From contig JALGXW010000014.1 of assembly GCA_029821875.1 (NCBI GenBank), positions 62,001 through 126,000 on the forward strand: a stretch of 64,000 nucleotides of DNA. Reading direction: 5' to 3'. The notes below the pieces were generated by a model. That model was not told where the DNA came from and did no database searches. It worked only from the letters and a program-made list of their open reading frames with translations. Below are positions 3,682 through 36,458 of this stretch, one piece after another (positions within the stretch are counted from its first letter, which is position 1; every line of letters starts with the position of its first letter). Source of the DNA: Candidatus Hebobacterum abditum. GTDB taxonomy: Bacteria > Armatimonadota > Hebobacteria > Hebobacterales > Hebobacteraceae. The position numbers and the translations under genes are program-made.

Positions 3682-4986
3682 CTAGTGCAACACTTCGCCC
3701 GTCACGAGGAGGTAGCCAGCGTACCACTTGGTGCCGTCGTATCGCTTGGGGTCGTCCATGGTGACGCCGCGCTCCGCCAGCAGCTTCACCTTGTCGGGCT
3801 GCTCGTCATCGATCTCGAGCCTGATGGTGTGCTCCTCGTCGGGCAGGTCGGTGGCGGCGATCATCACCGTGACGCGGTGGCCCGTACACCAGGAGTCGAA
3901 CCGCGGCACGATCTTCGGCTTCCCATCGTCGACGGTGACGATGATCTGCCCGCAGTCGGGGCCGACCATGTCGTAGACCATCACGCTGGTGCCGCGGAAG
4001 CGGAAGGCGATGCTCTCGCCCGGCTCCTCGGCCAGCCACAGCGCGTCGAGCTTGTCCCCGAACTCCGCGCCCTCGCGGAGCTTCCTCACGGCCGGATCGA
4101 TCACCACGTCGAGCTTCCGCCATCCGGCGCTCAGCTCCGCGCGGTCGAGCGGGATCGGCTTCGCGTACTCGAAGTTATCCTCGCGAAAGGGATCGGGCAG
4201 GGAGTGGGGGCCGGGCTGGCCCGCGCCCTTCATCTTCTCGATCGAGCGGGCGACGGCCTCCGCGTAGAGCCGGTGGCCGGCATCGTACGGGTGGATGCCA
4301 TCACCCGAGAAGAGGATCCTGTCGCCGAGGGCGGCCTTCTCCTCCTCGGTCTCCGGCCACCGGCCGGTGAAGACGAGCTTGCCCTCGTGTTCGAGGCGGG
4401 CCACCTCCAGCCCCATGAGGATGGTCGGCATATCGTAGTGCTCGGCGATGTCCGCATGCTCGGTGTAGGTGTGGGGGACCTCGCCCTGCCTCAGACCCTT
4501 GGTCATCCATTGCCCCACCACGAAGACGAAGCAGATATCGATGTCGGGGTCGGCGCGGCGGGCCTTGCGCACGATTCCCTCTATCGACTTGTGGATGCGC
4601 TCACCGGAGGTCGACAAGTCGTTGCCCGCGAACTCGATGAAGAGCAGATCGGGATTGTGACGGAGCACATCGCGCTCGAGCCGGAAGACTCCGAGGTCGG
4701 AGCTGGTGCCGGAGATGCCGGCGTTGATCGCCTCGATGCGCGCCTGGGGGTACTGCTCCCGGAACCACTCCTCGGTCATGGTGCGCCAGCCGGCGGACTT
4801 CGTGATGCTGCCGCCCAGGTAGGCGATGCGCACCTCGCCGCCTCGTTCGAGCTTGTGGAGGGCATTGGGCAGGCCACCGCGGGGAACGCACTCAGGCGGC
4901 AGGCGGAGAGGCGATTCATCGGCCGATCCACTGCCACAGGCAAGGGCGATCACGAGCACGACCACCAGACCCAGAAACCACGTCAT
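3682..4986 (-). CDS. Exported SGNH/GDSL-family hydrolase
   Basis: The 434-residue protein starts with a hydrophobic leader ending ALAC-GSGS, a lipobox-like site but with Ala at -3. The SGNH fold shows block I GGSIT (nucleophile Ser60), block II NAGISG (about 88-93), block III GND (121-123) and block V DGIHPYDAGH (Asp229/His232). These are the residues of the esterase triad and oxyanion hole. After about residue 255 comes a beta-rich C-terminal domain resembling the jelly-roll halves of carbohydrate esterases, so de-acylation of a polysaccharide is plausible. It sits between SLH surface proteins on the opposite strand. The substrate is unknown. Confidence 0.85.
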   Translation of the reverse strand: MTWFLGLVVVLVIALACGSGSADESPLRLPPECVPRGGLPNALHKLERGGEVRIAYLGGSITKSAGWRTMTEEWFREQYPQARIEAINAGISGTSSDLGVFRLERDVLRHNPDLLFIEFAGNDLSTSGERIHKSIEGIVRKARRADPDIDICFVFVVGQWMTKGLRQGEVPHTYTEHADIAEHYDMPTILMGLEVARLEHEGKLVFTGRWPETEEEKAALGDRILFSGDGIHPYDAGHRLYAEAVARSIEKMKGAGQPGPHSLPDPFREDNFEYAKPIPLDRAELSAGWRKLDVVIDPAVRKLREGAEFGDKLDALWLAEEPGESIAFRFRGTSVMVYDMVGPDCGQIIVTVDDGKPKIVPRFDSWCTGHRVTVMIAATDLPDEEHTIRLEIDDEQPDKVKLLAERGVTMDDPKRYDGTKWYAGYLLVTGEVLH

Positions 4987-5134
4987 CGATCCGTCTCCTT
5001 CCTCACCATTCGCTGGCTAGCTATGACGCAGCGCCCGCGGGGTCCTTCCTGGATGGCTCCCGGGGGCGCTGCGGTCGTCCGGCCGCCGCGTCAGTGGCAG
5101 CGGCTAGCGGACCCACGTAAACCTGTGGTAACAT

Positions 5135-5149
5135 GTAGACGTCTTCTAC
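5135..5149. promoter_or_regulatory. Short palindrome upstream of the GxGYxYP-SLH gene
   Basis: The sequence GTAGA-CGTCT-TCTAC is a 5-bp perfect inverted repeat, flanked by a wider CACGTA/TACGTG pair (5114-5151). It lies about 70 bp before the start codon at 5217, where an operator could sit. No regulator can be assigned. Confidence 0.25.
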
Positions 5150-5216
5150 GTGAGGACATCCTCGGGGGATTCGCGCCGGGTCTCGCTCTCTGTGCTCCCC
5201 AAGGGAGGCAAGTGAG

Positions 5217-7459: not shown

Positions 7460-9523
7460 GTGAAGACGAGATGGATTCCAGGGATGCTCGCGGTGGTTGT
7501 CATCTGTTCCGTGGGCGGCGCGGCGGAGGCTCAGCAGTTCTCTGACCTTGCCCCTGCGCTGGGGCTCCCCGGAGCGGTCGGCGCTGCCTGGGGGGACTAC
7601 AACGACGACGGGTACGCGGATCTGTTTGTCGCCGGCAACGACTATCTGGGGTACGGCGCTCGCCTCTTCAGGAACAACGGCAACCTGACCTTCGCCGATG
7701 TGAGCGCGGCGATGGGCATCTCCATGACCACTGAAGGGCAGATTGCGCCGGCCTGGGCCGACTACGACAACGACGGCGATCTCGACGTCTTCGTCGGGTC
7801 GGACGGCCTCGTTCCGAAGCTCTACCGCAATGAGGGCGACCACTTCGTGGACGTCGCGACGGAGGCCGGGGTCGCGTCCATCATCGGCTCCCTCGCAGCT
7901 CGCACCGCGGCCTGGTGCGACTACGACGGGGACCACTGGCTCGACCTCTTCGTTTCCGGCGGCGGGCCCCGACTGCTTCACAACAACGGGGATGGAACTT
8001 TCAGTGACGCCACTTCGTCGGCGGGCATGACCGGCCCGGCAGAGCCCGAGGGCGGGAACTGCTGCGCATGGGGCGACTACGACGACGATGGGTGGCCCGA
8101 CCTGATCGTCACGCGAATCGAGGGGCGGCGGCCTCTTCTCTATCACAGCAACGGCGACGGGACCTTCTCGGAAGAGGGCGGCTTCCTGTCTGTGGTCGAC
8201 GGTGGCGTTGGCGTGGCCTGGCTGGACTACGACAATGACCGGCTCGTGGACTTCTACATCACCAGCGGCCCGCCCCAGGCCAGAGACTGGCTGTTCCATA
8301 ACAACGGCGATGGCACGTTCACCGATGTCGCAGCTTCGGCCGGAATGGCCGGTGAGGCATCATCTTCTGATTCGGTGGCCTGGGCGGACTACGACAACGA
8401 CGGCTATGTGGACATCTATGTTGGCAACACGCAGACCGGCGGGGAGTCGCTGCTCTACCACAACAACGGCGACGGGACGTTCACGAACCGCGCTCCCACA
8501 GAGGGAATGGCGGGGACCTACCACGACGAGGCCGCAGTGTGGGCCGATGTGGACCTGGACGGGAAGGTGGATCTCTTCCAGGCGGGCCAGTTGATCTCGC
8601 GCTTCTTCCACAACAACGGGCCGGCCGGCAACTGGCTGCGGCTGCGCGCGCTCACCAACGCGACCGGCGCGGCTACGATCAGCGAGTTCCCCGCCCGTGA
8701 CGCCATCGGCGCCCGAGTCGAGCTCAACCTCGACAATGACGACGGCTTTCCTCCCGGCCGCACTGTGGTCCGGATGATCGACGGCGGCTCGGGATTCATG
8801 AGCCAGAACGAACAGGTGGCGCACTTCGGGGTCGGCGACTCGACGGTCGTGTGTGTGCGGGTGTTGTTCCCCGACGGCAGCATTGTCACCCACCGCAGCG
8901 TGCCGGTCAACCAGCAGATCACGATCAGAGACATCCCTGTGGGGCCCCAGGGGACCTTCCCCGACGTGCCTCGCGACTTCTGGGCCTACGAGGCGATCGA
9001 GAAGTGTGCGGAGGTGGGCATCGTCGCGGGCTATCCGGACGGCCTCTACCATCCCGAGATCGCCGTCACCCGGGATCAGATGGCCGTCTACATCTCCCGT
9101 GCCCTGGCAGGTTCGGACTTCGACGTGCCCGAGTTCACCGGCACTCCTACGTTCCCCGATGTCGATGAGATGCACTGGGCGCTGAGGCACGTCGAGTACG
9201 CGGTCGACCAGAACGTCGTCGCCGGCTACCAGGATGGCACTTACCATCCCGAATACGAGGTGACCCGGGACCAGATGGCGGTGTACGTGGCCCGCTCTCT
9301 CGTCGCGCCTGACGGCGAAGAGGGCCTGGCCGATTACGTGCCCGCCGACCCCCGCAACTTCCCCGACGTGGCCTCTGACTTCTGGGCCTATACGCACGTC
9401 GAGTACTGCGTCGAGAACGGTGTGGTGGCCGGCTACCTCGACGGGCTCTATCACCCCGAAATCGTCGTGACCCGCGATCAAATGGCGGTCTACGTGGCGA
9501 GGGCGTTTGGGTTGATGCCCTAG
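7460..9523 (+). CDS. Exported FG-GAP/ASPIC (UnbV) repeat protein with three SLH domains
   Basis: The protein has about 687 residues. A signal peptide (ending GGAAEA) precedes seven FG-GAP-like blades with calcium-binding loops such as DYNDDGYADLFV, DYDNDGDLDVFV and DYDNDGYVDIYV. This is an integrin-alpha-type propeller. An ASPIC/UnbV domain follows (NWLRLRALTN, GARVEL, GFMSQNEQVAHFGVG, VRVLFPDG), and three SLH domains end the protein. The GTG at 7460 is preferred over the GTG at 7451 because GGGGAAGGTGG lies about 7 bp before it. It follows the GxGYxYP-SLH gene with a 98-bp gap and may share its transcript. The role is probably a surface-displayed binding protein. Confidence 0.87.
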   Translation: MKTRWIPGMLAVVVICSVGGAAEAQQFSDLAPALGLPGAVGAAWGDYNDDGYADLFVAGNDYLGYGARLFRNNGNLTFADVSAAMGISMTTEGQIAPAWADYDNDGDLDVFVGSDGLVPKLYRNEGDHFVDVATEAGVASIIGSLAARTAAWCDYDGDHWLDLFVSGGGPRLLHNNGDGTFSDATSSAGMTGPAEPEGGNCCAWGDYDDDGWPDLIVTRIEGRRPLLYHSNGDGTFSEEGGFLSVVDGGVGVAWLDYDNDRLVDFYITSGPPQARDWLFHNNGDGTFTDVAASAGMAGEASSSDSVAWADYDNDGYVDIYVGNTQTGGESLLYHNNGDGTFTNRAPTEGMAGTYHDEAAVWADVDLDGKVDLFQAGQLISRFFHNNGPAGNWLRLRALTNATGAATISEFPARDAIGARVELNLDNDDGFPPGRTVVRMIDGGSGFMSQNEQVAHFGVGDSTVVCVRVLFPDGSIVTHRSVPVNQQITIRDIPVGPQGTFPDVPRDFWAYEAIEKCAEVGIVAGYPDGLYHPEIAVTRDQMAVYISRALAGSDFDVPEFTGTPTFPDVDEMHWALRHVEYAVDQNVVAGYQDGTYHPEYEVTRDQMAVYVARSLVAPDGEEGLADYVPADPRNFPDVASDFWAYTHVEYCVENGVVAGYLDGLYHPEIVVTRDQMAVYVARAFGLMP

Positions 9524-14749: not shown

Positions 14750-16582
14750 TCAGCCGGCCTTCTTCTCCGGCGGCTCCGGCGGGTACTGCGCCCGCCAGGC
14801 GTCATCCGGAATGGTGGGATTCTCCCAGGCGGGTCCGAGTTGCTGGATCAGGCCAGTCATCTCGGGCTGCGCGCAACTCCGCTCGACGTGTGCACGCGTC
14901 ACTGCTGCGCCGGTGGCGAGGCCGAGGTAGAGCAGGGCGAGAACCGCGCCGGCCGCTGGCAGCACGGCACGCAGGTTGCCTCGCCAGCGGGCCAGCAGGC
15001 CGAATCCCCGACGTAGCCGGAAGACAGCGACGAGCAGCGTCAACGTGAGCGACACAACTGCCGGGAATGCCAACAGGCCGATAAGCATCTGCTTCGGGAT
15101 GACGGGAGCCTGCGGGGCCCACAGCGACATCGCCGCTCCGGCAGCTCCCACCGGCAGCGCGGCCATCAGCGCCGTTATCAGTTTGGGTCGGCCGCCGAGG
15201 CCCGCGGCGGCATCGGCCGTGCGTCTCGCCCGAGCACTCACCAACAGGAAGATCACCAGCAGCGAGGCGAGCTGCACGACGAGGGCCACGCCCACAAGCA
15301 GTAGAAACGCAGCTCGCGCATAGCGATCATGTCGGATCCCCGAGGAGTCTCGCCATTGCTGTGCGAGGTCCATTCTGAGGTAGTGCTTCACGAGGTCCTC
15401 GCGGACTTCAGCCTGCGCCTCTTCGCCGGCCTCGGACACGTAGACAGCATGCTCGCGCCCGTAGAAGATGCGACCCTCGTTGCGCCCACTGGGTAAAGGG
15501 CCTCCGGACAGGCCAGTCATCTCGTCCGAGCGCCAGTCCCACACAGGCCTGGCTCCCAGCGTGAAGCCCACCCCCGCGAACGCCCACTCGATATACGGGC
15601 CCCCGTTGGCGATGACTGATTCTTGATAATGTCTTGAGAAGGCCATCGCCGCATCCCAGAGCTGGACCGCCTCGGCATCACGTCCCTCGATGTGTGCCCG
15701 CGTTCCCTCGTAGCGGGCGATCCTGGCGACATCCTTCAACCGTACCGCGGACCACACACCGACACTGTGCCTCCCGATCCAGCGTCGCTCCGGCGCCGGC
15801 GCCCCCTCCCGGTCCAGGAAACGCTCCACCATCGCTCGCACTTCCCTCGAATGGCTGTCGGCAATTGGCAGCTCTGCCGCCTCGATCAGCCGGCTGCGCG
15901 CCTTCTTATCCTCGTGCAGCCCGTAGAGGACCCAGGCTTCGAGTGCCACCGGAAGGCCATTCTCCGGCTCGTCGTGCTGCCATCCATGGAGCGCGTCGAG
16001 CATCAACTGGGCGCGCTCCGGGTCGAGCTGCACGGGTGTTCCCTCGGAGGCGAGCGACTCGAGGACCCCCTGTGCTTGGGCGACCCGTTCCGGATTGCCG
16101 GCATCTCCGTCTATGACCAGTGTCCCCAGATGGTGGTAGCTCGTGCCACTCATGAGCTGCGTGACATAGGCGGCCCAGTAGGCAGGAGCGCGATGCGACT
16201 CGGCTGCCTGCTTCAGGAGGGCGGTGCTCTTCTCCCTCTGCTCCCAGGTGTCCTGCGGCTGCGGCATATCACGCCGCTGCCGTGATTGCGAATCCATGGC
16301 CGCCGCCGCGAGCATCTTGGGCTCATCCGCGTAACGTCGTTCGCACTCAGACAGATACTCGGGATCGAAGGCCTCGAAGTGCTCGCGGAGTGCTTCCATC
16401 CAGATGGAAGCCACATTGCGAAAGCCCGCGCCCTCTGTGACCATGCCCTCCGTCGGCTCTTCCGACAGGCGGAGCAGGGCCGCCGGGCCTGCGCACCTCT
16501 GCAGTCTCGCCTGATCCCGCAGCGGCGATGCGGCTGCGACGACCACGGCCACGAGTACGAGGATCAACCAGGAAGCTCTCAT
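14750..16582 (-). CDS. Large uncharacterised membrane protein
   Basis: I do not recognise this 610-residue protein. An N-terminal hydrophobic segment (about 3-20, LILVLVAVVVAAAS) is followed by a mainly helical extracytoplasmic domain of about 400 residues with many short helices, which may be TPR-like. Then come about four transmembrane helices in the last 190 residues (including FLLLVGVALVVQLASLLVIF and LIGLLAFPAVVSLTLTLLVAV). The ATG at 16582 has GGGAGG upstream. A longer start at 16642 is possible but has no ribosome site. It is divergent from the TauE/SafE exporter. Confidence 0.6.
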   Translation of the reverse strand: MRASWLILVLVAVVVAAASPLRDQARLQRCAGPAALLRLSEEPTEGMVTEGAGFRNVASIWMEALREHFEAFDPEYLSECERRYADEPKMLAAAAMDSQSRQRRDMPQPQDTWEQREKSTALLKQAAESHRAPAYWAAYVTQLMSGTSYHHLGTLVIDGDAGNPERVAQAQGVLESLASEGTPVQLDPERAQLMLDALHGWQHDEPENGLPVALEAWVLYGLHEDKKARSRLIEAAELPIADSHSREVRAMVERFLDREGAPAPERRWIGRHSVGVWSAVRLKDVARIARYEGTRAHIEGRDAEAVQLWDAAMAFSRHYQESVIANGGPYIEWAFAGVGFTLGARPVWDWRSDEMTGLSGGPLPSGRNEGRIFYGREHAVYVSEAGEEAQAEVREDLVKHYLRMDLAQQWRDSSGIRHDRYARAAFLLLVGVALVVQLASLLVIFLLVSARARRTADAAAGLGGRPKLITALMAALPVGAAGAAMSLWAPQAPVIPKQMLIGLLAFPAVVSLTLTLLVAVFRLRRGFGLLARWRGNLRAVLPAAGAVLALLYLGLATGAAVTRAHVERSCAQPEMTGLIQQLGPAWENPTIPDDAWRAQYPPEPPEKKAG

Positions 16583-16686
16583 CTCGGCCCCCTCCCAGTG
16601 CTCGAGCGAGTGTGTGGCAGTCTCAGTGAGGAGATTCCACATGCCGAGGCCGCAGTGCTACCGCAGCGATCGGCGGCCCCGCTGTG

Positions 16687-16764: not shown

Positions 16765-17589
16765 ATGTTTCCGCAGATCTGGCTGGTCGCGCCCGGTCTC
16801 TTGCTCGGCATGTATGCGACCCTGATCGGCGCCGGCGGCGGGTTCGTGCTGGTGCCGATGCTGCTCCTGCTGGACCCGGAGGCCGACCCTGATACGGTTG
16901 CGAGCATATCGCTGGCCGTGGTGTTCGTGAACGCGTTATCCGGGAGCATCGCCTACGGGCGGCTGGGGCGCATCGACTTCCGGGCCGGCAAGCTCTTCTC
17001 GCTCGTCGTGATACCGGGGGCGATCCTCGGGGCTCTGGCGACGGGCCTCTTCTCCCGCGGCATCTTCGACATCGTCTTCGGCGCCGTGTTGCTGTTCAGC
17101 TCGGGCTTTCTCTTCCTCGCCCCCGGGGGCGAGAGGGGCGTGCAGGTGGGCGACAGTGGGAAGGGCGTGTCCCCCACGGTGGTCGCCAGCGATGGACAGA
17201 GCTACACATATAGCTACAGCCCAAAGGCCGGGTGTGCGCTCGGCTTCGTGGAGGGCTTCTTCTCCAGCATGCTCGGCATCGGCGGCGGCATCATCCAGGT
17301 TCCGCTGCTGGTGCGTGTTCTCAAGTTCCCAACCCATATCGCCACCGCTACCTCTCAATTCATCGTCGCGGTGATGGCCTTCTGGGCCACCCTCGTCCAT
17401 GTGGTGCGCGGCGATCTCGGGGCCGCCGAGACCCTCTCTCAGGGGCTGCCCCTGGCGCTCGGCGTCGCGGTAGGAGCACAGCTCGGCGCCTATCTGTCCG
17501 GCCGCGTCCGCGGCCCTACGCTGATCCGCTTTCTGAGCCTGGGTCTGGGATTCGTCGGCCTCCGGCTGTTGCTGGGGCAGGTGCTGTGA
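16765..17589 (+). CDS. TauE/SafE-family anion exporter (sulfite exporter-like permease)
   Basis: The protein has 274 residues, a usual length, with about eight hydrophobic segments. The first repeat (PGLLLGMYATLIGAGGGFVLVPMLLL) carries the Gly-rich GAGGGFVLVP motif. The second half repeats it as GFFSSMLGIGGGIIQVPLLV, as expected for this internally duplicated family. It probably moves sulfite, sulfonates or other organic anions across the inner membrane. Its position near a sulfatase-fold gene fits sulfur metabolism only loosely. Its last 55 bases are duplicated, degenerate, at 19397-19452, and the gene is followed immediately by a copy of the ECF sigma promoter region. Confidence 0.85.
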   Translation: MFPQIWLVAPGLLLGMYATLIGAGGGFVLVPMLLLLDPEADPDTVASISLAVVFVNALSGSIAYGRLGRIDFRAGKLFSLVVIPGAILGALATGLFSRGIFDIVFGAVLLFSSGFLFLAPGGERGVQVGDSGKGVSPTVVASDGQSYTYSYSPKAGCALGFVEGFFSSMLGIGGGIIQVPLLVRVLKFPTHIATATSQFIVAVMAFWATLVHVVRGDLGAAETLSQGLPLALGVAVGAQLGAYLSGRVRGPTLIRFLSLGLGFVGLRLLLGQVL

Positions 17590-17596
17590 CGCCCGA

Positions 17597-17720
17597 TGCA
17601 ACCTCTCGGCCCGAATCGGGATCATCGGTATGACTGCGGTTGAGCGAGAGCGGCCGTGGGTCCGCGGCAACCAGCATGACGAACGCGAGTGAGGGCGAAC
17701 TCGTCGGGCTCACCGCGCGG
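17597..17720 (+). pseudogene. Remnant of an ECF sigma gene: promoter, leader and first codons only
   Basis: This stretch matches 20173-20296, the promoter and start of the intact sigma gene, at roughly 80-85% by eye without gaps. TGCAACCT at 17597 and the ATG at 17676 are 79 bases apart, exactly as TGCAACCT at 20173 and the ATG at 20252. The reading MTNASEGELVGLT parallels MTKATDGELVGLT of the intact gene. Similarity stops near 17716 and no sigma domain follows. It is a truncated duplicate that begins 7 bp after the TauE/SafE stop codon. Confidence 0.8.
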
Positions 17721-17802
17721 CCCCTCCCTCCCTCACAGGAAGCAGGCCGCGCAGCCTCCCGGCAGGACCGCGCCGTCGGCCTCACGAACTCGCGTGTATA
17801 GC

Positions 17803-19383
17803 ATGTCCCGCGGCCGCGAACCAGCCAGCAAACGCCGCCTGCTCGCGCGGATCGTTGTGATCGGCGCCGTGCTGGGCGCGGTCTGGCTCCTGGTCGGCGC
17901 GGCGCGTGCTAGGGTCCCTCCGCCGCCGCTGCCGATCCCGCACACGTGGACTCCTCCGCTAGACGGCGCGGCCGGGCTCGCGCGGGCGCGGGAGCAGGCG
18001 GCCGGCGCGAATGCGGTCATCTGCGTGCTCGACGCCGCGCGGGCCGATCACCTCGGCTGCTACGGCTACCCGCGCGACACCACTCCCACCATCGATCGGC
18101 TGGCGGAGGAGTCAGTGGTCTTCGACCGGCACTTCTGCCAGCACACCCAGACGAAGGGCTCCATCGCTTCGCTCTTCCTCTCCCAGTACCCGCACACCCA
18201 TGGCGCGCTCCGCCATAGGAGGCCGCCCCGCGACGCCTTCAGCATCGAACAGGGATTCCAGCAGGCCGGCTACACCACCGCGCTGTTCGCCTCCAATATG
18301 TGGGTATCGCCCGTGAGGGGCATGGGGCTCGGGTTCGACTGGGTGGTCGCGCCCGGGGTGGACGCTCGGAGCCTGGGGCCAGCGCCCGGGATGCAGCTTG
18401 GGATCCTGGGGTCAGCGCGCGGCGACGAGCCGCCCGGCGAATCCCTGAACAACCGGGGCCCCGAGGCCCTGCTCGCGCGCATCGCGCGCTGGCTGGAGGA
18501 GAAACCATCGGGGCCGTTCTTCGCCTTTGTCCACTTCCTGCCACCCCACCTCCCCTATGCCGCGCCCGACGAACTCGCCCGCGCGTTCGCGGGGGAGCGA
18601 CCCCCCACGTGGTGGAGGGGCCGGTTCCCTTTCCGCGAGGTGAGGGACGCCAACACCGCGGGGGACCACGCTCGCCCAGGCCCCGACCTCGTCAACCGCT
18701 ATGACGCAAATCTGCTGTGGGCGGATCGCGTGGTGGGCGAGCTGGTGGGCCTGCTGCGGCGCGCCGGCGTGCTCGACCACACGCTGCTGATCATCACCGC
18801 CGACCACGGCGAGACCTTCGGCGAACACGGCTTCAAGTGGCACCCCGCCTGCCCCTATGATGAGACCATCCGCGTGCCCCTGCTCCTCCGCTTCCCGGGC
18901 GACGAGCGGCCCGCGGGGCGGGTGGCCGCGCTCACCGAATCCATCGACCTGCTGCCCACGATCTACGAGCTGCTCGGGCTGTCCTACCCGACCGAGTCGG
19001 TCCAGGGGCGTTCGCTCTTGCCGCTCCTCACGGGGGAGCAGCGCGCCGTGCGCAGCTACGCGTTCTCTCTGACCGAGGGCGACCCGCCCTGCGCGGTCAT
19101 CCGCGGCGAGCGCTACAGCCTGCTGCTGTTCGAGGGCGGGAAGCTCCGGGCGCTCTACGATACCGAGGCCGACCCCTGGCAGACCCGAAACATCGCGGAC
19201 GAGCAGGAGGACCAGGTGCAGCGGATGCTGCAGGCCTTCGAGGAATACGCCCGCGCCCAGCGCTACCCACCGCTCCAGTATCTCGACCCCGAGGCGCCCA
19301 GCTTGCTGCCCGACGCGCCGCCCGAAGAGCCGCTGTCACCGGAAGTCCGCGAAGAACTCGAAGCCCTCGGCTACCTGAAGTAG
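17803..19383 (+). CDS. Sulfatase-fold (alkaline-phosphatase superfamily) membrane enzyme with Thr at the nucleophile position
   Basis: The protein has 526 residues with one N-terminal transmembrane anchor (about 13-34). The sulfatase fold shows DAARADHLGCYGYPRDTTPTIDRL, SLFLSQYPHTHGA, ITADHGETFGEHG and HPACPYDETIRVPLL. The usual C/S-x-P-S-R formylglycine motif is replaced by TKGSI (117-121): Thr for Cys, Gly for Pro, Ile for Arg. A formylglycine sulfatase is therefore unlikely. A Thr nucleophile is known in LtaS-type phosphoglycerol transferases of the same superfamily, so a phospho- or sulfo-transferase is possible. The ATG at 17803 is chosen because the preceding sequence is the sigma remnant. 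Confidence 0.78.
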   Translation: MSRGREPASKRRLLARIVVIGAVLGAVWLLVGAARARVPPPPLPIPHTWTPPLDGAAGLARAREQAAGANAVICVLDAARADHLGCYGYPRDTTPTIDRLAEESVVFDRHFCQHTQTKGSIASLFLSQYPHTHGALRHRRPPRDAFSIEQGFQQAGYTTALFASNMWVSPVRGMGLGFDWVVAPGVDARSLGPAPGMQLGILGSARGDEPPGESLNNRGPEALLARIARWLEEKPSGPFFAFVHFLPPHLPYAAPDELARAFAGERPPTWWRGRFPFREVRDANTAGDHARPGPDLVNRYDANLLWADRVVGELVGLLRRAGVLDHTLLIITADHGETFGEHGFKWHPACPYDETIRVPLLLRFPGDERPAGRVAALTESIDLLPTIYELLGLSYPTESVQGRSLLPLLTGEQRAVRSYAFSLTEGDPPCAVIRGERYSLLLFEGGKLRALYDTEADPWQTRNIADEQEDQVQRMLQAFEEYARAQRYPPLQYLDPEAPSLLPDAPPEEPLSPEVREELEALGYLK

Positions 19384-19396
19384 TGACTGAGGGCCG

Positions 19397-19452
19397 ACGC
19401 TTTCTGAGCCTGGCTCTCGGGTTCGTCGGGCTCCGATCGCTGCGGGGGCAGG
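19397..19452 (+). pseudogene. Remnant of the 3' end of a TauE/SafE gene
   Basis: This stretch (CGCTTTCTGAGCCTGGCTCT and onward) aligns with the last coding bases of the exporter at 17527-17583, at about 80% by eye and in the same order and strand. No upstream part of the gene is present. With the sigma remnant at 17597 it shows that an exporter-sigma block was duplicated and then interrupted. Confidence 0.7.
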
Positions 19453-19535
19453 GCTCGGCGCTTCCCCGATCACGACAGGAGGGCAAGGGGCCTTGCCGAA
19501 GTGTGCCTTGAGTGGATCCTGCTCACTCCCGATAC

Positions 19536-20102
19536 ATGAGCGCCGACATGCGCGAGTCCAACCTGCTCCAGCCCGACAAAACGGGCCTGCTCGTCATCGA
19601 CCTCCAGCAGCCGCTGCTGGAGGTGATGTGGAACCAGCAGGAGCTGATCGCCAACGTGCGACGCCTGGCCGAAGGAGCGCGGATCCTCGAGTTGCCGGTT
19701 CTCGTCACGGAGCAGAATCCCGAGAAGCTGGGCCCTACTGCGTCCGCCGTCGCGGAGGTGCTGGAAGGTCGATCGCCTCTTCCCAAGATGGCCTTCTCCT
19801 GCTGCCGGGAGGAGGGATTCATGGAGGCGCTGCGGAGCCTGGATCGGGGCGCCTGGCTGCTTTGCGGTGTCGAGGCACATGTCTGCGTCAGCCAGACCGC
19901 GGTCGACCTACTCGACCACGGACACGACGTTCACGTCGCTGCCGACGCGGTGGGCTCCCGCGTCCGGGCGAACTGGGAGGCGGGGCTGGAGCGAGCGCGA
20001 CGAGCCGGCGCGATCATCACCACCACTGAGATGGCGCTGTTCGAGCTGCTCGAACGGGCGGGGACGGACCAGTTCAGAGCCGTGCAGCGGCTGATACGCT
20101 GA
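19536..20102 (+). CDS. Isochorismatase-family cysteine hydrolase
   Basis: The protein has 188 residues. The cysteine-hydrolase triad is visible: Asp in LLVIDLQQPLL, Lys in LPKMAFSC, and the nucleophile Cys in CGVEAHVCVSQTAVDLL, with the typical cis-peptide region before it. The VEAHVCV form is that of YcaC-like members rather than true isochorismatases. The substrate is unknown. Starts at 19536 or 19548 are both possible; neither has a strong ribosome site. The gene lies between a TauE/SafE remnant and the sigma promoter, so it may have been inserted into an ancestral exporter-sigma pair. Confidence 0.85.
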   Translation: MSADMRESNLLQPDKTGLLVIDLQQPLLEVMWNQQELIANVRRLAEGARILELPVLVTEQNPEKLGPTASAVAEVLEGRSPLPKMAFSCCREEGFMEALRSLDRGAWLLCGVEAHVCVSQTAVDLLDHGHDVHVAADAVGSRVRANWEAGLERARRAGAIITTTEMALFELLERAGTDQFRAVQRLIR

Positions 20103-20172
20103 TCCGCGAGCCATGATAGAGGCCACCTCGCGCCCGGCCGCTCGCCCTGGCGCGAAGGGCGCCCACGCAGAG

Positions 20173-20209
20173 TGCAACCTTTCGACCCGGATTGGGATCA
20201 TTGGTATGA
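20173..20209 (+). promoter_or_regulatory. Putative ECF-type promoter of the sigma/BtrH-like gene
   Basis: TGCAACCT (20173-20180) has the GCAAC core seen in many ECF -35 elements, and about 16 bp later comes CATTGGTATGA, where the -10 would lie. The whole segment is conserved in the remnant at 17597. ECF factors often drive their own genes, so self-regulation is likely but unproven. Confidence 0.55.
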
Positions 20210-20251
20210 GGGCGGTCGGGCGAGAGCGGCCGTGGGTCCGGAGTAGGGAGC

Positions 20252-21874
20252 ATGACGAAAGCGACTGACGGCGAACTCGTAGGGCTCACCCGGGGCGGCG
20301 ACCGCGACGCCTACGGGGAGCTGGTGGCCCGCTATCAGGGCCACGTGTATGCCCTCGCCTACAGCCTCACGGAGAACTGGGCGGAGTCGCAGGACATCGC
20401 CCAGGAGACTTTCATCCGCGCCTACGTGAACCTCGACGGGCTCCGCGATCCGGAACGCTTCCCCGCCTGGCTGCGGCGGGTTACCTTCAGTGTGGCGATG
20501 AAGTGGCTGAAGGCCTACCGGCCGGGGCTGTTCCAGCAGCTCGACGGCCGGGTGGACCTCGACACCCTCGAGATCCCCGACTTCCGGCCGGGGCCGCCGG
20601 AGGTGGTGGAGAAGAGGGAGCTGGCCAGGGCCGTGCAGGGCGCCATCGGCGAGCTTCCCGCCAAGTACCGCGTGCCGCTGACGATGTTCCACCTCGACGG
20701 CCTCTCCTATCAGAAAGTCGCCGACTTCCTGGACATCCCGCTGGGCACGGCCAAGTCGCTCATCCACCGCGCCCGGGCGAAGCTCAAGGGCGCGCTGGCA
20801 GGCTACGCATCAGAGGAGGTCACTCCCATGGTTCAAGAGGTCTTCGACGAGCACCGGCTGCCGGAGGAGTTCGCGCAGAAGGTGCTGGATAATGTGCCGA
20901 CACTGGGTTGGGGGACGGGGCGCGAGTGCACCTTCGCGGGTGCGCTGGAGGCGGCGCTCACGCCCACCGACCATCCCTACAGGTACAGCGACCTGCTCGG
21001 CTTCACCGGCCTCGCCTTCCGTACGCGGTGGTTCTGCGGGGATGATGGGGCGCGGTGGTGCCCCTCCTGCGCGGTGGGCGAGATGGAGGAGGAGATCGCG
21101 GCGGTCGAGAAGGCGACCGGCTGGCCGCTGCGGGTGCACTTCCTACAGGGAGATGATGTGGCAAACGTGGAGCAGACCAGGACCGACATCGTCAAATCGA
21201 TCGACGAGGGCCGCGCGGTTCTCGCCTACGAGCCGGAGTTGAACATGGATGTGGTGTACGGCTACGAGCAGGGCGGGAAGATGCTGCTTCTGCGCGACTA
21301 CGCCAAGGGGGAGGAGCCGCTCCGGCTGTCGCCCTCGAAGCTCGGCTTCCTCATGTTGTTCATCGGTGACCGCGGGGAGGCAATGTCTCGGCGCGAGGCG
21401 ATCATCGAATCGCTGAGGATCGCGGCCCGCAACTGGCGCCGCGAGCGCGGACACGCAGGGCCGGGCGAGTACTGGTATGGGAGGGCCGCGCTCGAGCACT
21501 GGATGGCGGACATCGAAGGGGCGGAGGAGCTGTCGGAGGAGGATCTGGACCAACTGCGCTCGGTCACCTGGTGGAACTTCACCACCATACACGACGCGAG
21601 GAAGACTGCGGTCACGTACCTGAGGGAGATCGCGGAGGAACTCGGCGGCGAGGCAGTGGAGGCGCTGGGGCGCGCCGCGGACATCTACGCGGAAGAGGTG
21701 AAGCTGTTCGACGCGGCCGCGGCGGAGCCGCAAGTCTTCATCGGATCGGCCGAGGGATGGACCGACGATGCGGGCCGCCGCGAGCGAGAGGTCTTGACCC
21801 GAGCGATCGAGCTGGAAGAGAAGGCCATCGCGGAGATCGAGCGCGTGTTGGAGCAGTTGCCTGCCGATGGCTAG
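20252..21874 (+). CDS. ECF sigma factor fused to a BtrH-like C-terminal domain
   Basis: The protein has 540 residues against about 180 for a normal ECF factor. Region 2 is at about 10-85 (ARYQGHVYALAYSLTENW, QDIAQETFIRAYVNL, FPAWLRRVTFSVA). Region 4 is at about 125-185 (LPAKYRVPLTMFHLDGLSYQ, FLDIPLGTAKSLIHRARAKL). From about 205 comes a domain with GRECTFAGALEAAL, YSDLLGFTGLAFRTRWF, DIVKSIDEGRAVLAYEPE and a helical end. The next gene carries the same domain, which resembles BtrH_N plus DUF4872. The Cys in GREC could be catalytic or acyl-carrying. Extended ECF factors often use such tails as built-in regulators. The gene overlaps the next by 8 bp (ATGGCTAG), implying coupled translation. Confidence 0.82.
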   Translation: MTKATDGELVGLTRGGDRDAYGELVARYQGHVYALAYSLTENWAESQDIAQETFIRAYVNLDGLRDPERFPAWLRRVTFSVAMKWLKAYRPGLFQQLDGRVDLDTLEIPDFRPGPPEVVEKRELARAVQGAIGELPAKYRVPLTMFHLDGLSYQKVADFLDIPLGTAKSLIHRARAKLKGALAGYASEEVTPMVQEVFDEHRLPEEFAQKVLDNVPTLGWGTGRECTFAGALEAALTPTDHPYRYSDLLGFTGLAFRTRWFCGDDGARWCPSCAVGEMEEEIAAVEKATGWPLRVHFLQGDDVANVEQTRTDIVKSIDEGRAVLAYEPELNMDVVYGYEQGGKMLLLRDYAKGEEPLRLSPSKLGFLMLFIGDRGEAMSRREAIIESLRIAARNWRRERGHAGPGEYWYGRAALEHWMADIEGAEELSEEDLDQLRSVTWWNFTTIHDARKTAVTYLREIAEELGGEAVEALGRAADIYAEEVKLFDAAAAEPQVFIGSAEGWTDDAGRREREVLTRAIELEEKAIAEIERVLEQLPADG

Positions 21875-23018
21875 CAAAGCGCACGAGAGGAAGCGAGGGG
21901 CCGAGGACCCCATCACCAGGCGCAGCTTCCTGCAGAAGATGGGGATGGGCGCGGCCGCGCTGTCCATGGGCGTGCTGCCGGAGGGGGCCGCTGCCGCAAC
22001 GAACAGGCGGCGGGCCGACCAGAGAGAGGGGAGAACCATGAAAGTACCCATGAAGGTGGAGTACGAGTTCGTCTGGCTGTCCTGGGTGGCCTCGGCGACC
22101 GGCTGCCTGAAGGCCCTCGGCGTCGACTGTGGCCCTGCGGAGGTGGCCGGCTACTCGGGCTATGCCTTTATGCTCAATGTCCCCACAGGGCTCCATCCCT
22201 CCGGGCCGACCGCGTTCGACTGGGGCCTGCTCCATCGCGGCGTGTCGCTGTTGGGCCGGTCCACGCTGGTCTTCCACGGCGCCCACTGTCCCTGTGAGAT
22301 GAAGAGCGAGGCCGAGGCCAAGCGCGTTCGCGCGGAGATGCGAGCGGCCTACGAGATGGTGGAGAGAGAGATCGCCGCCGGGCGTCCCTGCGTTATCTGG
22401 GGAACTTATGATCCGGACTTCGGCATCGCCGTCGGGGTCGAGGATGACACTTACCTGGTGGAGACCTTCCGGCGCGGCACCGACGAGCCGCAGACTCCCA
22501 TCCCGTACGACGGGCTCGTCTGCCCCTCGGGCGCCTACGCGCTCGCCTTTCCCACCGCCATCGGGGTGCCCCGCCGCCAAGGAGACCGCGAGGCCCTCCG
22601 CCACGCGGTCACGATGCTCAACTACAAGCATGGCGACCCGCAGTACGCGAACGGCCAGGCGGGCTATGATCGATGGATCGAGAGCCTTGAAGGTGGCGAG
22701 GCCGAGCCCCATGGCAACAGCTACAACGCGCACTGCTGGGAGGAGGCGAGACGCTTCGCCCGCGACTTCCTCGCCCGCGTGTCGACGCGCAATCGCGACA
22801 TGTCGGACGCGCTGGCCCCGGCCATCGCCGCCTATGGAGAGGTCGTCGAGCCCCTCGACAAGCTGACCGACCTCTTTCCCTTTCCGGATAGAGACCGGAA
22901 GGTCGATGACCCCCAGGTCCGAGCCAAGGCCATCGAACACCTCCGCGCCGCCAAAGCCGCCGACACGCGAGCCGCGGCTGCGCTCACAGCGGCGGCCGGA
23001 GAGTGGCCGCCGGAGTAG
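21867..23018 (+). CDS. Tat-exported protein with the same BtrH-like domain as the sigma tail
   Basis: The protein has 383 residues. The N-terminus carries a twin-arginine signal (TRRSFLQKMGMGAAALSMG). The mature part shows ATGCLKALGVDC, YSGYAFMLNVPTG, EREIAAGRPCVIWGTYDPDF and GQAGYDRWIESLE, which line up one by one with GREC, YSDLLGFTGLAF, VKSIDEGRAVLAYEPE and GRAALEHWMADIE in the sigma C-terminal domain. The Cys in ATGC is the best candidate active residue. A strong internal ribosome site and ATG at 22038 could also give a cytoplasmic form. It could be the extracytoplasmic partner of the sigma factor. The function is not known. Confidence 0.75.
   Translation: MASKAHERKRGAEDPITRRSFLQKMGMGAAALSMGVLPEGAAAATNRRRADQREGRTMKVPMKVEYEFVWLSWVASATGCLKALGVDCGPAEVAGYSGYAFMLNVPTGLHPSGPTAFDWGLLHRGVSLLGRSTLVFHGAHCPCEMKSEAEAKRVRAEMRAAYEMVEREIAAGRPCVIWGTYDPDFGIAVGVEDDTYLVETFRRGTDEPQTPIPYDGLVCPSGAYALAFPTAIGVPRRQGDREALRHAVTMLNYKHGDPQYANGQAGYDRWIESLEGGEAEPHGNSYNAHCWEEARRFARDFLARVSTRNRDMSDALAPAIAAYGEVVEPLDKLTDLFPFPDRDRKVDDPQVRAKAIEHLRAAKAADTRAAAALTAAAGEWPPE
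22027..22040 (+). promoter_or_regulatory. Internal ribosome site and second start codon
   Basis: The segment AGGGGAGAACC followed by ATG at 22038 lies in frame just after the Tat leader and begins MKVPMKVEYEFVW. It is a better ribosome site than the one at the first start, so a second, signal-less product is possible. Confidence 0.5.
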
Positions 23019-23126
23019 ATCGTCTCTCTCACACAGCTCGGCAGCTCGCCCATGCCGCTTCATTCTCAGCCGTTGGCGGCGGCCCCTGCGGCGGGTGATC
23101 GGGATGTGGCCGCGGGAGGAGGGGAG

Positions 23127-25208
23127 CTAGAGGCACCAGATGGCCTTGATGGCGAGGCGGTTAACCCACTCTTCGGCATTGGGGTCGCCCACCACGACCA
23201 GCAGGTCCATGCCGCGCCGGAGCCGCTGGCGATAGGCCGCGTAGGCGTTGGTGTCCGTGCCGTGGCGCACGACCCGCGCGCTGGCTGTCTTCCCTTCGCC
23301 CACCTCGTAGGTCGTCTGAAGGACGCCCAGGCTGGCGGTCTCTGCGGGGACGACGTTGCCCTCATCGTCGAGGTCGGCGGCGGTGACGCGCTCGAGTCCG
23401 ATCCGCATCGACCACCGCGGGGCGAGGCGGAAGGCCTGGTATATCTCTGCGAAGCGGTAGTCCTCGCCATAGTGCTCTCCCCAGACCCACCTCAGGCCGC
23501 CCCCTCGGTACATGTCGTTCCGGTTCCAGCCGAACCGGAGATATCTCTCTTCGCTGTCGAAGCCATCGCGCACACCGGTCTCGGCGCCGACCCGGAGTCT
23601 CGTGCCCGCCCGCCAATCGACATCGTACCCGACAGCGAGCCGCCGACGCGGGCCTTGCTCGGAGTGGCCGTAGTTGTAGCGAAGGTCATACTCCCTCTCT
23701 TGCACGCTGCTGTCGTCGTAGGAGATCTCGTAGTCGAAGTGATAGTAGGTGTTCCTGACCCCGGTCTCGTACACGAGCCCGTCATCGGCCCGGAACTCGG
23801 GGCCGATCTGCTCGACGCCGACATGCCAGTCCAGCCCCTGCCGCCGGCGCTCCCCGACCTCATAGGTGACCATGGTGTCATCGCCGCCCTCGCCCTGGGT
23901 GTGGCTGCCAAACAGGTCGCCCCAGACATAGCGGTCGACGTCCTCTCCCGGCCAGTCCCAGCTCCCGAACACCGAGTAGGCGCGGTTGTCCGGCTCTCCG
24001 GGCACGCGCCGGTCGACGCCGTTGAAGCCGATCCCACCCGTGGTTCCGAAGTGGTGCTGGTAGCTGCAGACGAAGTGGTTCTCGCCTCCGCGCCGGTAGG
24101 CGTCGAGCACCCCGAACCGCTCCGCGCCGACGGTGCCGAAGGCCTTCGCCCCGAGATCGAAGTCCTCCACTCTCCTGCTGTAGAAGAGGTTGGACCAGGG
24201 GAAGTAGCCGCTCCCCTCCTGGAAGAAGGGCCGGGGATCCGGCAGCCACCGCTCGGTGTAGGTGAAGTCGATCGTCTCCACCACGTCCTCAATGTTGCTG
24301 AAGTCGGGGTTGGCCGTGGCGAGGGCCACCACGCCGTTGGAGAGGGTGCCTCTCGCGTCCAGGCCCGCGGTCAGAAGCTCTCTCTCCCCCTCCTCTTCCG
24401 ACAGCACGGAGAGCGCGTAGGGCATGAGCACATACCGGAACCGCACGGGAGGCGTCTCGAGGCCCGTCCATCGAGCGCAGTTCTGCGTGTCGAAGACCTT
24501 GGCGAAGCAGGCCGGCCAGAGGGAGCGGTCCTCCTCGCGGGCCAGCACGCGGGCGAAGTCGAAGCGAAAGCAATCCTGGCCGTCGGGATAGCGGAGGATA
24601 GACTAGGGGATCTCTATCTCGGCCGTCCAGCCTCCCTCATCGATGGCCGCCGCCGCCCGCCAGTCGCCTCGCCACTCGATCTTCTCCGAGGTGCCGCCCG
24701 GCACGTAGTCCCACTGGGTGCCGGCCGGGTTGACGCGGAAGGAGTAGAAGTTCTGGCTGTTGTTCTCCACGTCCAGCCAGAACTGCACCTGGTCATCCAG
24801 GCCGAGGCCTCCCTGGCGCTTCTTCTGGTCGCACCGGATCTCGGAGGGCCTGGCGTCATGGCAGCGGAAGGCGACGTAGATCGCCCGGGAGTCATAGCAC
24901 AGCCAGGCCTCGGTGCGCTCGTGCTCGGGCGCGTCGATCCGCTGCCGCCAGAAGCCGTCTATGTGAGTGGCCTGCTCCCAGCAGGCGTCGTCGAGGACGC
25001 CGTCGATAACGGGCGGCTCGGCGATCGCCGCCGCCGGGACCGAGGGCGGGCCGGTTGCGGCCTCGCCGGCCGTCTCCACGGCCTTGCCCACCTCCACAGC
25101 TTCGCCGACCTCCTCCGCGGCCCAAAGAGGCGCGGTCGCAGAGGCCGCCAGCACGGCACACATGATTGTTGCCAGCAAAGCAGTGAGTCTCATTCTCGAA
25201 TCGGACAC
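23127..25208 (-). pseudogene. CBM9-like/DUF5916 outer-membrane protein interrupted by an in-frame TAG
   Basis: This is a paralogue of the gene at 25590, with 693 codons. A signal peptide is followed by a CBM9-like domain (PPVIDGVLDDACWEQATHID, KTEAWL-like RTEAWLCYDS) and then a long beta-barrel-type region ending VNRLAIKAIWCL, a C-terminal aromatic end typical of outer-membrane barrels. Codon 202 (24603-24605) is TAG in the context EIEIP-stop-SILRYPDG. The paralogue has Phe there (EIPFSILRYPDG), so TTC became TAG. The frame is intact on both sides. It is either a recent pseudogene, an error in sequencing or assembly, or a readthrough codon. The GTG at 25208 has AGGAGGGG 9 bp upstream. Confidence 0.85.
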
Positions 25209-25589: not shown

Positions 25590-27620
25590 CTACAAACACC
25601 AGATGGCCTTGATGGCAAGGCGGCTGACCCACTCCTCGGCATTGGGGTCTCCCACCACAACCAGCAAGTCCATGCCGTGGCGCACTCGCTGCCGGTAGGC
25701 TCCATAGATGTTTGTGCTCGAGTCGCCGGAGACCAGCCGCGCGCTGGCGCTCCGCTCCTCGCTGATGTCGTAGGTCGTGGTGATGACAAGCTGGCGCGAC
25801 CACTCGGGCGGGGTCACGTTTCCCTCATCGTCGAGGTCGGCGGCGTAAATACGCTCGAATCGCAGCTCGCCCGACCATCTCTCGGTCGGGTGGAAGGCCT
25901 GGACGAGGCTCTGATAGCGGAAGGGCTGGCTGTAGTGTTCTCCCCAGTGGAAGTCGATCCGGCCGGTGCGGCGCATGTCTTTCCGGTTCCACCGGGCGGC
26001 AATGTAGTGTGTCGCTTCGTCGAAGCCGTCTCTCTCGCCGCCGCTTATGCCGAGCCACATGCTCCACCCGCTGCGCCAGTCTAGCTGATGGCCCAGCCAG
26101 CCGGAGCGGCGCCGTCCGTCCTGCGACATCCCGGCGTCGACCCAGAGGACCCACCAGCTGCGCTGCACGTGGCCCTCATCGTAGGTCCGGGCGTACTCCA
26201 TATTGGCAGAGAAGTTCCTTACGCCTGTCTCCGGAACGTACCCGTCGTCGGCCTGGAACTCCAGTCCGGTGGCCTCGTATCTGGCGAGCCAGCTGAGCCC
26301 TTGGAGACGAGACTGCCTGAGGCCGACGTTCAGGCGCGAGTCGTCTCCGCCCTCGCCTTGAGTGTGCGACCAGGCATGGCTGAGATGATAGTGGCGATTG
26401 CCCCCCTCGAAGGGGCGACTCCAGTAGCCGCCGAGCTGATATGCCTGGTTGTGCGGCTCATCGGGGAGGCGTGTGTCTGTGCTCCCCACACTCAGACCGG
26501 CAGTCGTGCCGATGCGGTGTCCGTACTCCCACACAAGATGGTTCTCTCCGCCGCGGCGGTAGGTGTCGAGCACGCCGAACTGGTGGCGGCCCAGTGTGCC
26601 GAAGGCCTTGGCTCCCAGATCGAAGTCTTCGATCCGTCGGCTGTAGAAGATGCCTCCGGGGAAGTAGTACTCACCTTCCCGGAAGAAGGGACGATATTCC
26701 GGGAGATGGCGCTCGACATAGGTGAAGTCGATGGTCTCCACGACATCTTCGAGGTTCCGGAAGTCCGGGTTGTAGGTGCCGAGGCCGACGACTCCATTCG
26801 GGAAGGTCCCCTTCACATCGAACCCCGCGGTCAGCGGCTCCCGATCCTCCTCGTCCTCCGACAGCACAGACAGCGCGTACGGCATGAACGTGCACCGGAA
26901 AGGAACCGGCGGCGTTGTCAGACCGGTCCAGCGCGCGCAGTTGTCCGTGTCCCAGACTCGGGCGTACGCGGGAGGCCAGGTGCACCAGTCTTCCTGGCGG
27001 GCGAGAAAGCGAGACAGCACGACGCGGAAGGTATCCTGTCCATCCGGGTAGCGGAGGATCGAGAACGGTATCTCGATCTCGGCCGACCATCCCTCCTCGT
27101 CCACGGAGCCGGCGGCGCGCCAGTCGCCTTTCCATTCGATCTTCTCAGATGTCCCGCCGGGCACGTAGTCGTACTGCGTGCCCGCCGGCGTGACGTTGAA
27201 GTTGTACCAGTTCCTGCCCGTATCGTTCACGTCAATGCCTACCACCACGCGGTCGTCATCCCAGATGCGGCCCTGACGCTTCTTCTGGGCGGCGCGAATC
27301 TCTGAGGGCTTGCTGTCGTGACAGCGGAAGGCGACATAGATCGCCTCGCCGTCGTAACCAAGCCAGGCCTCGGTCTTCTCTATCGGCGATTCGTCCTCGC
27401 GCTCGCGCCAGAAGTCGGTCATGTGCGTCGCTTCCTCCCAGCAGGGGTCATCGAGGAGGCCGTCGATGACCGGCGGCTCGGCCACCTGGACAGCGGGAAT
27501 CGAAGGTGGATCTGTGTCCGTTTGCCCCTGCGCCCCGCTCGCGGGCGTAGAAAGGACTGATGCGGCCGCTACCAGTGTGAGCAAACAGATGGCACTTCGT
27601 ACGACACGGCTTGCGTTCAC
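25590..27620 (-). CDS. CBM9-like/DUF5916 outer-membrane protein (intact paralogue)
   Basis: The protein has 676 residues. A signal peptide (about 1-33, ending ASGAQG) is followed by a carbohydrate-binding family 9-like domain (PPVIDGLLDDPCWEEATHM, EKTEAWLGYDGEAIYVAF). Then comes a long region with amphipathic strands (WARYEATGLEFQADDGYV, SARLVSGDSSTNIYGAYRQR) ending SRLAIKAIWCL, a barrel-type C-terminus. DUF5916 proteins are thought to be outer-membrane barrels, sometimes linked to polysaccharide or peptide use. The GTG at 27620 is preferred because GAGGGG precedes it. It lies upstream of its broken paralogue on the same strand. Confidence 0.85.
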   Translation of the reverse strand: MNASRVVRSAICLLTLVAAASVLSTPASGAQGQTDTDPPSIPAVQVAEPPVIDGLLDDPCWEEATHMTDFWREREDESPIEKTEAWLGYDGEAIYVAFRCHDSKPSEIRAAQKKRQGRIWDDDRVVVGIDVNDTGRNWYNFNVTPAGTQYDYVPGGTSEKIEWKGDWRAAGSVDEEGWSAEIEIPFSILRYPDGQDTFRVVLSRFLARQEDWCTWPPAYARVWDTDNCARWTGLTTPPVPFRCTFMPYALSVLSEDEEDREPLTAGFDVKGTFPNGVVGLGTYNPDFRNLEDVVETIDFTYVERHLPEYRPFFREGEYYFPGGIFYSRRIEDFDLGAKAFGTLGRHQFGVLDTYRRGGENHLVWEYGHRIGTTAGLSVGSTDTRLPDEPHNQAYQLGGYWSRPFEGGNRHYHLSHAWSHTQGEGGDDSRLNVGLRQSRLQGLSWLARYEATGLEFQADDGYVPETGVRNFSANMEYARTYDEGHVQRSWWVLWVDAGMSQDGRRRSGWLGHQLDWRSGWSMWLGISGGERDGFDEATHYIAARWNRKDMRRTGRIDFHWGEHYSQPFRYQSLVQAFHPTERWSGELRFERIYAADLDDEGNVTPPEWSRQLVITTTYDISEERSASARLVSGDSSTNIYGAYRQRVRHGMDLLVVVGDPNAEEWVSRLAIKAIWCL

Positions 27621-36278: not shown

Positions 36279-36429
36279 GGCGGTTCCCCTTCCTTTGGCG
36301 GCCATCAGTAGCCTCTCAAGTCAGTGTGCTGCTGGATTGCGGCCTGCGAACTGAATATGCCGGCAGAAGGGTATTGGCCGCCGCCGCGCCCGATCCTCGC
36401 GGGGAAGTCGTGGGGCAGGACCTAGCCCC

Positions 36430-36458
36430 GTTGGGCAGGAGCTTGCCTCCTGCCCAAC
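36430..36458. repeat. Dispersed hairpin repeat, best copy
   Basis: GTTGGGCAGGAG and CTCCTGCCCAAC form a perfect 12-bp stem with a 5-base loop (CTTGC). A tail with CCCCCTCACTCGCGTT follows. It lies between two minus-strand genes (36278 start and 36525 end). Confidence 0.8.

Follow-up and report, generated by a model that had tools for sequence, protein, structure and literature searches.

Gene Content of the Locus

The analyzed window is a stretch of 64,000 nucleotides (bases 62001-126000 of contig C87) from a 4.31-Mb genome (G000; 103 contigs, 95% complete, 3.7% contaminated). A segment of its plus strand encodes a TauE/SafE-type permease, a sulfatase-fold enzyme, an isochorismatase-family hydrolase, an ECF sigma factor, and the product of a gene that overlaps the end of the sigma gene; the permease and sigma genes are each represented a second time by a short partial copy (Table 1).

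Table 1. Genes and repeat blocks of the locus, with positions in the window.
Feature	Position	Strand	Evidence or relation
Intact TauE/SafE-type permease, 274 aa	16765..17589	+	Pfam PF01925, 1.5e-40
3' part of the TauE gene, repeated in decayed form at 19398-19452	17527..17581	+	Repeat comparison
Second copy of the start of the ECF sigma gene (promoter, leader, codons 1-13; ATG 17676)	17597..17714	+	Ortholog: G001, contig C7, 7853-7968
Sulfatase-fold enzyme (alkaline-phosphatase superfamily), 526 aa, ATG 17803	17803..19383	+	Pfam PF00884 Sulfatase, 1.4e-52
TauE remnant: last part of another copy of the gene, matching 17527-17581 at 84%	19398..19452	+	
Isochorismatase-family hydrolase, 188 aa, ATG 19536	19536..20102	+	Pfam Isochorismatase, 5.4e-33
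Upstream region (promoter, leader) of the intact ECF sigma gene, TGCAACC-TTTCGACCCGGATTGG-GATCATTG	20173..20251	+	Design common to homologs
Intact ECF sigma factor, 540 aa, with a C-terminal extension of ~330 aa	20252..21874	+	Pfam
Downstream gene, 8-base overlap with the sigma stop	21867..23018	+	Kept neighbor in G002

The product of the sigma gene matches PF04542 and PF08281 (regions 2 and 4) and has no Pfam match for region 3; its promoter-binding domains are regions 2 and 4 alone, as in ECF sigma factors. Homologs are encoded in G002 (70%) and G012 (69%). The C-terminal extension, the product of the downstream gene, and a 630-aa predicted protein encoded upstream on the minus strand (14750-16642) gave no credible match in Pfam up to E 1, and the extension had no match below E 0.25 in the Protein Data Bank. 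The downstream product bears a weak likeness to the extension (hhalign probability 95%, E 2e-8, 202 columns, obtained with alignments of only six and two sequences), and its gene adjoins the sigma homolog in G002 as well (84%); it is unmatched in the G012 locus. A region homologous to the extension (20873-21874) is found in G003 (locus L057) as a long open frame at 55%, in which the sigma part is undetected. Downstream, two adjacent minus-strand genes have near-identical C-termini (GMDLLVVVGDPNAEEWVxRLAIKAIWCL; 23114-23199 and 25590-25628), and the DNA encoding this shared terminus occurs in G001, G002, G003, G004, and G006 at 75-97%.

Formylglycine sulfatases carry as their nucleophile a Cys or Ser in the motif C/S-x-P-S-R, a modified residue. 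The enzyme encoded next to the TauE gene has a Thr (TKGSIASL) at the aligned position, which we take to be the place of that nucleophile, and its homologs have TKPSTASL and similar sequences there (aligned by eye). The enzyme thus has neither the Cys nor the Ser that characterizes formylglycine sulfatases, and sulfate release by this enzyme together with sulfite export by TauE is therefore an unsupported scenario.

Partial Copies of the TauE and Sigma Genes

The promoter, leader, and first 13 codons of the sigma gene (20173-20290) recur at 17597-17714 with 99 of 118 bases identical (84%), and the 3' part of the TauE gene (17527-17581) recurs at 19398-19452 with 46 of 55 bases identical (84%). 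With the TauE block as a, the sigma block as b, the sulfatase-fold gene as X, and the isochorismatase gene as Y, the order in the window is a-b-X-a'-Y-b'. The best matches in 60 order-3 Markov windows were 33/55 and 58/118, and elsewhere in the real window the top scores were 31/55 for the TauE block and 56/118 for the sigma block; both repeats, which a preliminary description of this DNA had proposed to be aligned, are thus far above chance. A search of the whole genome (4.31 Mb) returned two matches per block, itself and its partner, and therefore neither block is a mobile repeat. A dispersed mobile element, the case that the preliminary description had held to speak against its own account, is rejected.

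Several details given earlier agree with the sequence. The distance of 79 bases from TGCAACC to the ATG is found in both copies (17597 to 17676 and 20173 to 20252), and the end of a TauE gene lies upstream of the intact sigma gene, with a length of 55-56 bases and without the final codons and the stop. The sigma promoter and 13 codons indeed follow the intact TauE gene; the homology, however, stops at 17714 and not at 17720. The 87 TauE bases preceding the tail block have no counterpart ahead of 19398 (26% identity). Neither remnant is more than 2.7 kb from its intact partner, and the two block pairs have diverged alike, by 16% (9/55 and 19/118), which fits a single duplication followed by reciprocal loss. 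In another part of the window, 27 bases (36429-36455) are exactly repeated on a different contig of the same genome (L053, 9532-9558) and partly in G006, possibly as a small dispersed repeat.

Promoter Design and Predicted Sigma Control

According to PMC8103513 and PMC3426412, ECF promoters have AAC at -35 and CGT at -10, and autoregulation is frequent. An AACC element, a 16-nt spacer, and a TCATTG-like -10 element precede the window sigma gene and its homologs on contig C92 of the same genome, in G002 (two genes), and in G012. The window gene is therefore predicted to have a promoter of its own with the AAC -35 and a conserved -10 region, as ECF membership would imply; the -35 fits these descriptions, whereas the -10 is a variant and not the CGT that they name as typical. 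We searched for this pattern with up to two mismatches, using the reversed pattern as a control, and obtained five matches in G000, four in G001, four in G002, and two in G012 (two, one, one, and none for the control, respectively). Three of the five G000 matches lie upstream of ECF sigma genes (in the window and on contigs C92 and C30) and one is the remnant; the fifth (contig C27) lies inside a coding frame and looks like a chance match.

The window sigma factor resembles the ECF41 group, as that group is described in PMC3426412, in the upstream AACC -35 and conserved -10 and in its large fused C-terminal extension, and a shared promoter ahead of a neighboring gene would likewise make a very small regulon. 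It differs from that description in that its extension, at ~330 aa, has no Pfam match, that neither an anti-sigma nor a COE gene is seen beside it, and that its promoter activity is a prediction.

The promoter copy upstream of the sulfatase-fold gene has AACC at 17600, a 16-nt spacer, and ATCATCG as its -10 region. Its AACC and TCAT are unaltered in the remnants of both species; in G001 the copy fits the pattern without a mismatch. As the copy retains the ECF -35/-10 core and is directed toward the enzyme gene, it may put the enzyme under sigma control. In the window, 5 of the 28 core bases differ from those of the sigma promoter (counted on aligned rows), which is no better than in the rest of the remnant, and the remnant is thus a candidate promoter. 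That transcription of the sulfatase-fold gene now starts from a remnant of the putatively autoregulatory sigma promoter, which would place the gene in the sigma regulon, is a tentative proposal drawn from these motifs, with the odds leaning against it. The frame that starts at the remnant ATG (17676-17803) ends after 41 codons, one base ahead of the enzyme ATG, and coupled translation would therefore be allowed; the counterpart frame in G001 remains open and overlaps the enzyme gene.

A second truncated ECF sigma start was observed in the comparison of L153 (contig C53 of G001, 3954-4052) with L152 (contig C30 of G000, 5085-5185). The L153 segment (promoter and ~11 codons) is 81% identical to the intact G000 ECF sigma gene, is cut at almost the same codon as the window remnant, and is fused in G001 to the 3' end of an outer-membrane-type gene (RLAIKAIWCL and stop).

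Comparison with a Congeneric Genome

The same genus is represented by one genome, G001, both among 61 genomes and among the 26 listed of 291. Its contig C7 (8,607 bases) terminates within the ortholog of the sulfatase-fold gene, and positions 7853-8607 align without gaps to 17599-18353 of the window with 92% identity over 755 bases. The promoter and 13 codons thus sit upstream of the same sulfatase-fold gene in G001, and this joint dates from the species split or before it; the preliminary description had the enzyme gene enter later as a replacement of the middle of the repeat, which does not agree with this age. The proteins are 93% identical over residues 1-183, and the two genes differ at 5 of 184 first, 7 of 184 second, and 22 of 183 third codon positions. 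The few changes at first and second compared with third positions indicate purifying selection on the enzyme gene.

The region upstream of the promoter copy is different. In place of TauE, G001 has an acetyl-CoA synthetase gene (Pfam) on the opposite strand, and the TauE-promoter joint is not conserved there. The ortholog of this gene in G000 is located on contig C44 (93%). The flanking oxidoreductase is 91-92% identical in the window and G001, and the gene content between it and the remnant is wholly different; the DNA for the 630-aa protein has no counterpart in this interval of G001. In each of the three contexts, the promoter copies are homologous from the -35 box onward.

Between the oxidoreductase gene and the promoter copy, G001 carries a 62-base isochorismatase fragment (window 20001-20062, 92%). 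Over the 59 bases shared with G006, the window and G001 differ at 5 positions, the window and G006 at 7, and G001 and G006 at 10; with G006 as the outgroup, four of the five changes fall on the G001 branch, as debris would be expected to show. The 95-nt isochorismatase match in G006 was considered as a dispersed fragment and rejected, for the gene is cut by the contig end; the sigma gene does not come after it, and its presence places the isochorismatase in the family earlier. The position of the G001 fragment, upstream of the promoter copy, suggests that the isochorismatase lay within the duplicated block and is not a late insert. The fragment thus fits a TauE-isochorismatase-sigma ancestor in place of the later insertion before the second sigma gene that had been put forward; it could also be the ortholog of the only isochorismatase gene of the window, displaced by rearrangement.

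In the 118-base block, the window and G001 remnants differ at 15 positions (12.7%), the window remnant and the sigma gene at 19, and the G001 remnant and the sigma gene at 17. Singletons in the three-way comparison number 10 for the sigma gene, 8 for the window remnant, and 6 for the G001 remnant, and one site has three states. In the rest of the leader, 14 of 88 bases differ between G000 and G001 (15.9%). These counts, together with the divergence of the leader and the enzyme, place the duplication at about the time of the species split.

Distribution and Neighborhood of the TauE Gene

The permease matches its Pfam family over the full length, as TauE/SafE permeases (PF01925) do, but lacks a conserved linkage to a sigma gene. 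At a cut-off of E 1e-40, TauE was found in 6 of 291 Armatimonadota genomes, own genome counted, and in none of the other genomes of its taxonomic family. G002 and G012, which encode the close sigma homologs, gave no match to the TauE protein at E 1e-3. We compared the loci by tblastn (E 1e-4): five other genomes supplied six TauE loci of 9.7-13 kb, at which the sigma factor, sulfatase, isochorismatase, and downstream gene were unmatched, and at ten sigma-side loci TauE, the sulfatase, and the isochorismatase were unmatched. Among these ten, L055 and L059 are one place, two others are just 4.5 kb long, and L057 matches the C-terminal extension alone. The uninterrupted TauE-sigma pair sought in relatives was thus found in none of the loci read, and the suggestion that the exporter was the original partner of the sigma factor lacks support. 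TauE as a conserved sigma partner is rejected on synteny, and the exporter gene is probably a passenger and not an old partner.

Origin of the Locus

We propose, with a probability of about 0.55, that a segment was duplicated near the species split and that reciprocal loss followed. A segment with the TauE gene, most likely the isochorismatase gene, and the ECF sigma gene would have been duplicated about when the two sampled species separated, and deletions would then have taken out the redundant parts reciprocally. The left copy would have kept TauE whole, lost the isochorismatase, and retained its sigma gene only up to codon 13; the right copy would have kept no more than the last 55 bases of TauE, with the isochorismatase and sigma genes left whole. 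The sulfatase-fold gene would sit between the two copies. We infer that a single duplication made both block pairs and that the isochorismatase belonged to the duplicated unit. The blocks are paired, follow the same order, have diverged equally, and have local copies alone, as expected of a tandem duplication. A long unit predicts the start of homology at the -35 box in three contexts only with further loss at its edges, and an undecayed TauE-isochorismatase-sigma block was found in none of the genomes searched, the sole congeneric one being G001, whose contig C7 ends inside the enzyme gene. Duplication with reciprocal remnants, as given in the preliminary description, is supported, whereas the specifics of the duplicated pair and the order of events are not.

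That earlier account starts from a tandem duplication of an uninterrupted TauE-sigma pair, after which the sulfatase-fold gene took the place of the middle and the isochorismatase entered ahead of the second sigma gene; it is unlikely. The stop of the left TauE gene lies 7 bases from the promoter and both blocks have diverged to an equal degree, as such a history would have it, but G001 already has the joint with the enzyme and bears the isochorismatase fragment on its left side, the contig-end gene in G006 points to an isochorismatase earlier in the family, and the loci read contain no TauE-sigma pair.

Import of the left TauE-promoter segment from a close relative, as a xenolog, with the remnants being ragged ends of imported or deleted pieces, is decidedly unlikely. 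The 16% divergence of the copies is near that between G000 and G001 (12.7% for the remnants, 15.9% for the leader), and the completely different content between oxidoreductase and remnant, together with the location of acs on C44, indicates frequent exchange at this locus; however, a donor was not found, and the short distances (at most 2.7 kb) between remnants and intact partners match a tandem event.

A small-scale duplication under selection, copying only the promoter and first codons with the TauE tail as a separate event, would account for the -35 box start in every context and the unaltered AACC and TCAT in both species' remnants, but is very improbable, as it leaves the equally old TauE tail unexplained and the 28-nt core is without clear constraint in the window.

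The preferred reading, duplication of a longer segment with reciprocal loss, resembles known cases of duplication with reciprocal gene loss in that two genes are partly doubled and each is whole where the other copy has decayed. It differs from them in that the two copies are separated by a third gene, that one of them also encloses a fourth, and that an undecayed relative was not found. Essentially, the locus shows gene turnover of an ordinary kind in a genome of the Armatimonadota.

The locus provides a dated, two-species case in which duplication debris can leave the promoter of a regulator before another gene. Promoter capture, by which a partial duplication would have put the sigma promoter and 13 codons before an unrelated enzyme gene, to be kept in two species despite the exchange upstream, is doubtful; if true, the enzyme gene would have joined the sigma regulon via duplication and not via point mutation. 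The locus also cautions that short remnants next to a gene are no proof of its functional partner. For the sigma factor of the window, the partner worth studying is the overlapping downstream gene.
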